A stretch of 64,000 nt of DNA from Streptomyces canus (lineage in GTDB: Bacteria; Actinomycetota; Actinomycetes; Streptomycetales; Streptomycetaceae): contig NZ_JAUSYQ010000002.1 in the NCBI RefSeq assembly GCF_030816965.1, positions 8,174,001-8,238,000 on the forward strand, in the 5' to 3' direction. This document shows, piece after piece, positions 34,781-35,150 of the stretch. Position 1 is the stretch's first letter; each line of letters opens with the position of its first letter. The notes beneath the pieces are model-generated. The model saw only the letters and a list, made by a program, of their open reading frames with translations, ran no database searches and was not told the DNA's origin. The translations under genes were made by a program, and so were the position numbers.

Positions 34781-35150
34781 ACCGTTCCTGTGGACTGAGC
34801 GGGAGTGAGTCCGTTCAGCCGCGCGCCCCGAACGGTCTTGGGCGAGCTGGTCCCCGGCGTACTCGACCCTGGGGCGGCGACACGCATCCTGTGCGCGGTC
34901 CGGGCCCGGGAGGCCAGTTCCCTGTGCGACCTGTCAGGTCGGTACGGCCAGAGGCGACGGGGAGGCCCTGAACCATCCTCTGGTGGAGCAGGGGCCCCGC
35001 ACTCCCCCAAAGGGGGTGCCCCCAGACGCCGTACCCGGTGTCCCAGGTCGCACGACCACGCTAGCCCAAACAGCCCAGGACTCCGCAATCCCGTAAGCGG
35101 ACGATCACGCGATCGAGCTAATCCGGCCTTGTGCGCACTCCCTGGTGAGC
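34781..35150 (+). repeat. Dispersed intergenic repeat, copy A
   Basis: First of three copies of a mosaic element. The head (34781-34913) begins ACCGTTCCTG and includes CCGTTCAGCCGCGCGCCCCG; it is about 96% identical to copy B over 130 bp. A middle module (about 34942-35003) and a tail (about 35049-35150) match copy C in the same relative order. It occupies the gap between the phosphatase and oxidoreductase genes; no gene in it is convincing. Confidence 0.85.

Follow-up and report, generated by a model that had tools for sequence, protein, structure and literature searches.

What is the intergenic repeat that occurs three times in a 64-kb stretch of this Streptomyces genome, and why is one of its copies rearranged? 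The window, as the whole stretch of 64,000 nucleotides is called here (G000:C2:8174001-8238000), contains copies A, B and C, which a preliminary description had divided into a head, a middle and a tail and regarded as a possible modular small mobile element or regulatory RNA family. The most probable answer (about 0.78) is that the repeat represents a Streptomyces tnpB transposon in a form without tnpB and is a predicted source of omegaRNA that would load TnpB made elsewhere. This reading rests on ends that match those of tnpB transposons, on the same GGGG preceding the left end and on a matching guide-RNA fold with compensatory changes.

Copies, ends and insertion sites

The three copies lie where they were first placed, with boundaries corrected as in Table 1. 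The heads of A and B, first estimated to be about 96% identical, show 96% identity over 135 nt, and the parts that A and C have in common follow the same order, as had been described, in an alignment of 360 nt (72% identity). All three copies are indeed located 3' of genes: open reading frames ending at 34604 and 37953 precede A and B, and a minus-strand reading frame, read by eye, ends 93 nt beyond C. The right end of each copy faces the gene that the copy adjoins 3'. In the same window, ARAGORN reports a tRNA-Val (40948-41038, minus strand) within the long open reading frame 38347-42330, probably a false positive.

Table 1. Coordinates in the window of the three copies and of their observed and predicted parts
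Feature	Position	Strand	Basis or remark
Copy A, whole element	34781-35159	-	Left end 35159 to right end 34781; aligned copies and common ends
Copy B, rearranged element	37973-38272	-	Sequence comparison with other copies
Copy C, whole element	54441-54827	+	Left end to right end
Inverted left-end segment of B	38168-38267	.	L005 positions 11-110 inverted, then 195 onward
Predicted omegaRNA scaffold of A ("middle" and "head")	34781-34999	-	Alignments A1 and A2, pair counts, covariance-model match
Guide-RNA stem 1 around CCACCAGAG	34966-34993	-	
Stem CGCCC...GGGCG	34824-34844	-	Pseudoknot pairing possible between loop ACCGTTC (34830-34836) and the final 7 nt (34781-34787)
Right-end hairpin GGCTGA...TCAGTC	34793-34820	-	Three pairs with double changes in A1
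Predicted omegaRNA scaffold of C	54575-54827	+	Model match at 54744-54827
GGGG target / TAM-like motif outside left end of A	35160-35163	-	GGGG counts; empty sites in relatives for four other copies
GGGG target / TAM-like motif of C	54437-54440	+	
Predicted guide of A, flank out of right end	34761-34780	-	Position only, by analogy with TnpB reRNA (PMC8612924)
Flank beyond right end of B, guide position	37953-37972	-	
Predicted guide of C	54828-54847	+	Position only
22-nt G-rich palindromic repeat nested in A	35003-35024	.	Alignment of copies with and without the insert

With copy A as query, the 10.66-Mb genome yields at least 37 matches at E<=0.01 (40 of 97 first-look candidates scored), a number well above what chance would give; many of them are partial copies. 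Seventeen copies, A and C included, are near-full, each covering 360 or more of the query's 370 bases, and L002 and L003 are 90-91% identical to A over nearly the full length. A partial copy (G000:C1:65360-65474) lies on a 149-kb second contig, perhaps a plasmid. With copy L009 as query, matches occur in at least 30 of the 149 further genomes sampled from the genus, a lower bound because at most four candidates were scored per genome; some of these matches comprise only the related tnpB-type right end. An exact 30-base head pattern occurs in at least 120 stretches of the named genome collection, and the 80 among the matches listed are all from Streptomyces. The search for further copies in this and other Streptomyces genomes, proposed in the preliminary description, thus found them in both.

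The element measures ~350-430 nt and reads GGGG/TTGG...AGGAACGGT/flank on the strand opposite to the one on which A was first listed (slashes mark the junctions). An intact copy (minus strand in A, plus strand in C) consists, behind the GGGG, of a left end beginning TTGGTAACTGCTCGCC, a stretch of ~130 nt and a right half of ~220-280 nt that ends in AGGAACGGT and is followed by the flank. The former tail is the left end, the former middle and head together make up the right half, and the head is the right end. All 17 aligned near-full copies have this single order. A small mobile element that carries a structured RNA, as first supposed, remains a suitable description, but the modules are not free cassettes: a single element has the head as its right end, the middle as its guide-RNA scaffold and the tail as its left end. 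The copies form one family rather than a new modular architecture. Neither end (TTGG.. or ..AGGAACGGT) is an inverted repeat of the other. The right end contains a hairpin with compensatory changes, and at the left end no clear hairpin emerged. Some copies (A, L013, L014, L015, L017 and L068) contain, at fixed places, short G-rich palindromic repeats of two kinds (~22 and ~36 nt), one of them inserted at the base of the pseudoknot stem; in this they resemble the short mobile repeats that invade Haloquadratum PATEs (PMC3119063).

Compared with a normal copy, L005, copy B contains the first ~10 positions, then positions 110-11 inverted, then 195-365. This amounts to an internal inversion of 100 nt with ~84 nt lost beside it, guide-RNA stem 1 included; the flipped tail of ~98 bp had been seen correctly and now has a refined span. 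The inversion arms (35054-35152 and 38169-38267) are 83% complementary. Among four relatives fetched because mainly their heads had matched, L147 and L148 have the normal order and L149 and L150 contain no recognizable tail. The flipped tail looks private to B, which is a decayed copy. The left end of B merges with a terminator-like hairpin (window 38270-38299), and the flanks of L005 (G000:C2:9536346-9536697) form an inverted repeat, GGCGGGTCGAGC / GCTCGACCCGCC. Insertions may favor terminator stems.

Of 79 elements placed at the left end, 55 have GGGG immediately 5' of it, vs. none of the 79 at positions -12 to -9 (97 elements considered, 18 not placed); an earlier, stricter placement gave 31 of 36 (61 not placed). 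Relatives without the element were sought for eight copies using joined flanks. Both flanks meet for L005, L012, L015 and L017, and the right flank only is found for L014. Target-site duplications, which the preliminary description had proposed to look for, are absent from these five empty sites (both sides in the first four, right side in L014). For four of the five copies, GGGG is present at the insertion point in one or more relatives: AACGAGGGG/TACGCC (L015), GTCGGTGGGG/TTCGAAC (L012), GGCGGGG/TGTCC (L017) and ACGGGG/TGAGCGG (L014). The relative of L005, in G097, reads CTGGCCG/TGCTCG, without GGGG, and among the relatives shown for each of the other four copies, one or more have at most three G in this position. 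Insertion therefore occurs without target duplication and mostly behind GGGG. Among the listed copies, only the orthologous pair L013/L055 have the same right-end flank; that L013 has this flank in common with a copy in G140 indicates that some copies are old and inherited. At the site of L014 (G000:C2:2132788-2133172), the relatives L086, L094 and L100 have ~365 nt more, which look coding and, by eye, transporter-like; the L014 insertion was accompanied by loss on the left side. If the repeat behaves like known TnpB systems (PMC8612924), its target motif would be GGGG, or perhaps GGGGT, and its guide would come from the right flank.

Relatives that carry tnpB

The reading frame in the head had initially suggested a relic of an IS4-type transposase. 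This guess was dropped: the gene that accompanies diverged copies is tnpB, and the diverged head matches L027, L030 and C2:8631174 lie just behind this gene. In public databases the nearest relatives of the gene bear the names IS200/IS605 accessory protein TnpB-related protein, IS605 OrfB family transposase or transposase; S. canus strains figure both among them and among the listed matches to the 30-base head pattern. The genome contains four tnpB genes (L051-L054), all in elements with a matching right end, and three keep a matching left end as well. The ends of the tnpB elements read GGGGTT.GG on the left and AGGAACGGT on the right; in L051, L052 and L053 the GGGGT left end and the right end are 1.7-1.85 kb apart; L054 retains just a right end, which is slightly extended. 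The right end is thus common to the repeat and the tnpB transposons. A full-length open frame is found only in L052 and L053; in L051 the frame begins late, and the N-terminal part is missing from L054. In L052 the frame opens 87 nt behind the left end, leaving no room for tnpA. A tnpB relative at E<=1e-20 occurs in 27 of 120 other genomes of the genus.

The protein matches an RNA-guided TnpB profile at E 4e-13, below the cut-off of that profile, and falls short of the curated cut-offs of the zinc-ribbon domain model PF07282 (20 vs. 26.3 bits), NF040570 (49 vs. 100) and TIGR01766 (30-31 vs. 32). D293 and E354 are invariant among 26 aligned sequences and D431 is nearly so; these we take to be the RuvC catalytic triad of TnpB. 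Residues of apparently RuvC catalytic type are thus kept across the aligned tnpB relatives. An AlphaFold2 model built on the 26-sequence alignment has a mean pLDDT of 73.5 and a pTM of 0.51. With Foldseek, its nine best matches in the PDB are all Cas12f chains (best E 3.8e-8, TM 0.2-0.35), and a sequence search of the PDB with the protein finds no relative. A tnpB-type right end without an adjoining tnpB match, a solo scaffold of the tnpB lineage, lies at C2:3869631-3869730. At a zinc-ribbon-type tnpB locus (L037 389-444; G000:C2, tnpB match 2331800), 58 nt are 84% identical to the stretch just behind the left end of L052; by this likeness a second tnpB type may share parts of the element.

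A helper transposase was looked for as had been proposed, and none with these ends was found among the Y1 and IS607 TnpA loci of the genome. The only Y1 TnpA match (C2:7878611) and the sole IS607 TnpA over the cut-off (C2:5350712; a second match is below it) were considered as the source and set aside, the fetched loci containing neither AGGAACGG[TC] nor the left-end motif. A 20-nt match of 90% to L145 (E 0.069) was disregarded. The system may be IS607-like, in keeping with the G-rich motif and with GGT at the two junctions, or IS605-like, in keeping with the right-end hairpin and with a scaffold that overlaps the tnpB reading frame in tnpB elements.

The right half keeps the guide-RNA fold of tnpB elements

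Two alignments of right halves were compared. Alignment A1 comprises 32 of 34 tnpB-less copies (17 from this genome and 17 of 29 relative loci, the other 12 being partial or unclear), with L010 and L013 left outside (no clean right-end match; deletion). Alignment A2 comprises 21 tnpB elements: the partial L139-L142 were removed from 32 distinct tnpB loci before counting, and outside A2 among the remaining 28 are L120, L124, L126 and L138 (right-end pattern not found), L123 and L137 (atypical) and L054 (extended end). Alignment A4 omits L134. The structure contains stem 1 (~185-213 nt inside the right end), a second small stem, the CGCCC...GGGCG or pseudoknot stem (~44-64 nt inside it), the right-end hairpin and a pseudoknot between a loop and the terminal GAACGGT.

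In A2, 92.5% of the cells pair and 76 cells contain double changes, compared with 22.1 in shuffles (0 of 500 as high), spread over 14 pairs, a number reached by 2 of 500 shuffles. In A1, 98.4% of the cells pair and 25 contain double changes, compared with 6.2 in shuffles (again 0 of 500), but they affect only five pairs, which 55 of 500 shuffles reach, a modest covariation. Counts of further pair types do not stand out in either set (97 and 128 of 500 shuffles), and when the structure is slid along the alignments pairing drops to 26-45%. Stem 1 shows compensatory changes in both sets and the pseudoknot stem shows double changes in A2 only. The pseudoknot itself is paired in 99.1% (A1) and 95.9% (A2) of its cells; because these pairs hardly vary, covariation cannot probe them. 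The right half thus keeps the fold of the tnpB guide RNA (omegaRNA) with compensatory changes. The scaffold of copy A is no more stable than shuffled sequences (z -0.06; 98 of 200 at least as stable).

A covariance model, R1, was built from 20 tnpB right ends only; three are this genome's own, and R1 matches those three by construction. In the window it finds A (34781-34864, E 2.5e-15), B (3.1e-13) and C (54744-54827, 6.9e-14), the next best match being at 0.55; a sequence-only model likewise finds all three, so that these matches alone do not prove the fold. In the whole genome, where 150 of 11,471 candidates were scored, R1 identifies at least 28 places at E<=0.01. Five are tnpB-type (98-123 bits), four of them behind the four tnpB genes and one at C2:3869631, without a tnpB match; the other 23, including A, B and C, score lower. 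Known Rfam families were discarded as an explanation: none of the covariance models reaches the gathering threshold in the 64-kb window, and in six loci the models, RAGATH-18 included, give one irrelevant weak match at E<=1, RAGATH-18 not being detected.

Among 25 elements, mean pairwise identity per 20-column block is 0.83-0.96 (~0.90) in the guide-RNA columns 141-360, 0.71-0.88 (mean ~0.77) in columns 1-100 and 0.86-0.88 in between; the columns of stem 1 and of the pseudoknot stem reach 0.91-0.96. An unrooted tree of the right halves separates 33 tnpB-less from 21 tnpB rows on one branch (100/100). One old tnpB-less lineage fits this split better than many fresh deletions, and to judge from this tree the lineage looks older than a recent deletion. 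A tnpB relative is present in eight of 14 genomes with the repeat vs. 19 of 106 others (Fisher p=0.003, kinship uncorrected), and in eight of 10 genomes with long copies vs. 19 of 110 (p=9e-5, likewise uncorrected). These tests cover genomes G001-G120 and count as the repeat a match reaching beyond the right-end part, a definition chosen with both lists in view. In G097 and G104, which contain long copies, the genome search gives no tnpB match.

Predicted mode of life and competing readings

TnpB elements move by TnpA-mediated peel-and-paste and are retained by RNA-guided cutting of empty sites (PMC8612924). Most likely the repeat would live in the same way, with both proteins borrowed. The element would be transcribed into an omegaRNA whose guide is the DNA just outside the right end, and this RNA would load a TnpB encoded elsewhere in the genome. 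After loss of a copy, TnpB loaded with a sister copy's guide would cut the empty site, where GGGG adjoins the guide match, and repair would then copy the element back. Spread would require a transposase in trans. Several observations weigh against this explanation: two of the four tnpB genes in the genome are not full length, the TnpB profile scores are under the curated cut-offs and TM-scores do not exceed 0.35, no tnpB match accompanies the long copies of G097 and G104, GGGG is missing in the relative of L005 and in some relatives of L012, L014, L015 and L017, neither TnpA locus of the genome has these ends, covariation among the tnpB-less copies is modest, and the scaffold of copy A is no more stable than shuffles.

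The repeat may instead be a plain PATE, whose end DNA hairpins serve as substrate for a TnpA in trans and which carries the guide-RNA part unused. Known PATEs derive from IS605-type elements and have too little length to encode a transposase (PMC3119063), and a PATE-like copy in Halanaerobium retains the last 58 nt of tnpB and the whole right end (PMC7290912). This is unlikely, since stem 1 and the pseudoknot stem lie beyond the end hairpin and are nevertheless so well conserved, compensatory changes occur in them (in stem 1 in both sets, in the pseudoknot stem in the tnpB set, the tnpB-less copies being nearly invariant there) and the tnpB-less lineage looks older than recent deletion. It seems quite unlikely that the copies are fossils of a family that spread once and now decays with no present function: the many partial copies, the rearranged copy B, the nested palindromes, the flank shared by L013 and the G140 copy and the incomplete tnpB genes would agree with it, but some copies are fairly young, to judge from the heads of A and B and from L002 and L003, and the guide-RNA columns are on average more conserved than those of the left end.

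TldR-like guides exemplify regulators used by the host. A comparable role, in which the RNA or hairpins act on neighboring genes (as antisense RNA, terminator or TldR-like guide), would suit three window copies lying 3' of a gene with their right ends toward it; it is very unlikely, as an intergenic position is expected of tolerated insertions, the right-end flank differs in each listed copy except L013/L055, and ~365 nt present in relatives are missing beside L014. The new modular element with an invertible tail envisaged at first is extremely improbable: the flipped tail of copy B argues for it, but the 17 near-full copies have one order, and the four fetched relatives have either normal order (two) or no tail (two). 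A classical MITE was rejected, there being neither terminal inverted repeats nor, in the five empty sites, target duplication.

The tnpB-less transposon reading can be compared with known systems. The closest functional parallel is provided by the "ghost" Spu-1 elements of Fanzor in Spizellomyces punctatus, where 134 ghosts face 42 Fanzor loci and the ghost omegaRNAs were shown to be functional (PMC10432273). In both cases nuclease-less elements outnumber those with the nuclease, the ends are related, an omegaRNA scaffold occupies the right end and no transposase was found between the ends. Spu-1 is, however, a eukaryotic Fanzor system with 30-nt inverted repeats and a CA motif, whereas the repeat belongs to bacterial TnpB, without inverted repeats and with GGGG, and its omegaRNA function is predicted from sequence. 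PATEs are the closest structural parallel (PMC3119063, PMC7290912). Like the repeat, they have no terminal inverted repeats and no target duplication, IS605-type ends, too little length for a transposase and short nested repeats, and their near-terminal palindrome may have a counterpart in the right-end hairpin of the repeat; the repeat also has its ends in common with a protein-coding relative, the tnpB elements. The passages of these reports on PATEs describe no guide RNA, in contrast to the conserved guide-RNA fold of the repeat.

The reRNA/omegaRNA of ISDra2 TnpB, like the RNA predicted here, consists of the 3' end of tnpB and the right end with a guide from the flank and contains a pseudoknot between guide-adjoining bases and an upstream loop; in ISDra2 one motif is needed for transposition and cleavage, as GGGG may be in the repeat (PMC8612924, PMC10097598). 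The ISDra2 TAM is TTGAT rather than GGGG, the stems differ, and the scaffold described here also occurs without tnpB. IS607 TnpB has a similarly G-rich TAM (AGGAG or GAGGG) adjoining the left end (PMC11061315), but its reRNA is RAGATH-18, not detected here in the six loci; in the present tnpB elements the scaffold overlaps the tnpB frame. As expected of TnpB omegaRNAs, the scaffold at the right end is homologous to that of tnpB elements, its fold is conserved and GGGG lies outside the left end.

Stand-alone omegaRNAs have been mentioned for IscB. The literature covered, which was mostly outside subscription journals, reports no bacterial tnpB-less family bearing a guide RNA. A bacterial TnpB ghost family that carries a guide RNA would be new; PATEs and Fanzor ghosts are its known relatives. 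There is about an even chance that all copies belong to one ancient lineage of bacterial guide-RNA parasites, distributed across Streptomyces and supplying its own omegaRNAs to the TnpB of other transposons; the ~23 scaffolds for four tnpB genes in this genome would then be the guide library of one nuclease, each guide protecting a different copy.

The tnpB-less transposon reading explains what would otherwise look like an anonymous intergenic mosaic. A bacterial counterpart of ghosts in a laboratory-tractable genus would allow a direct test of whether nuclease-less transposons exploit TnpB in trans. With their common scaffold, numerous guides and predicted G-rich target motif, the copies would form a naturally occurring guide collection, and the tnpB relatives offer a TnpB apparently without a full zinc ribbon.
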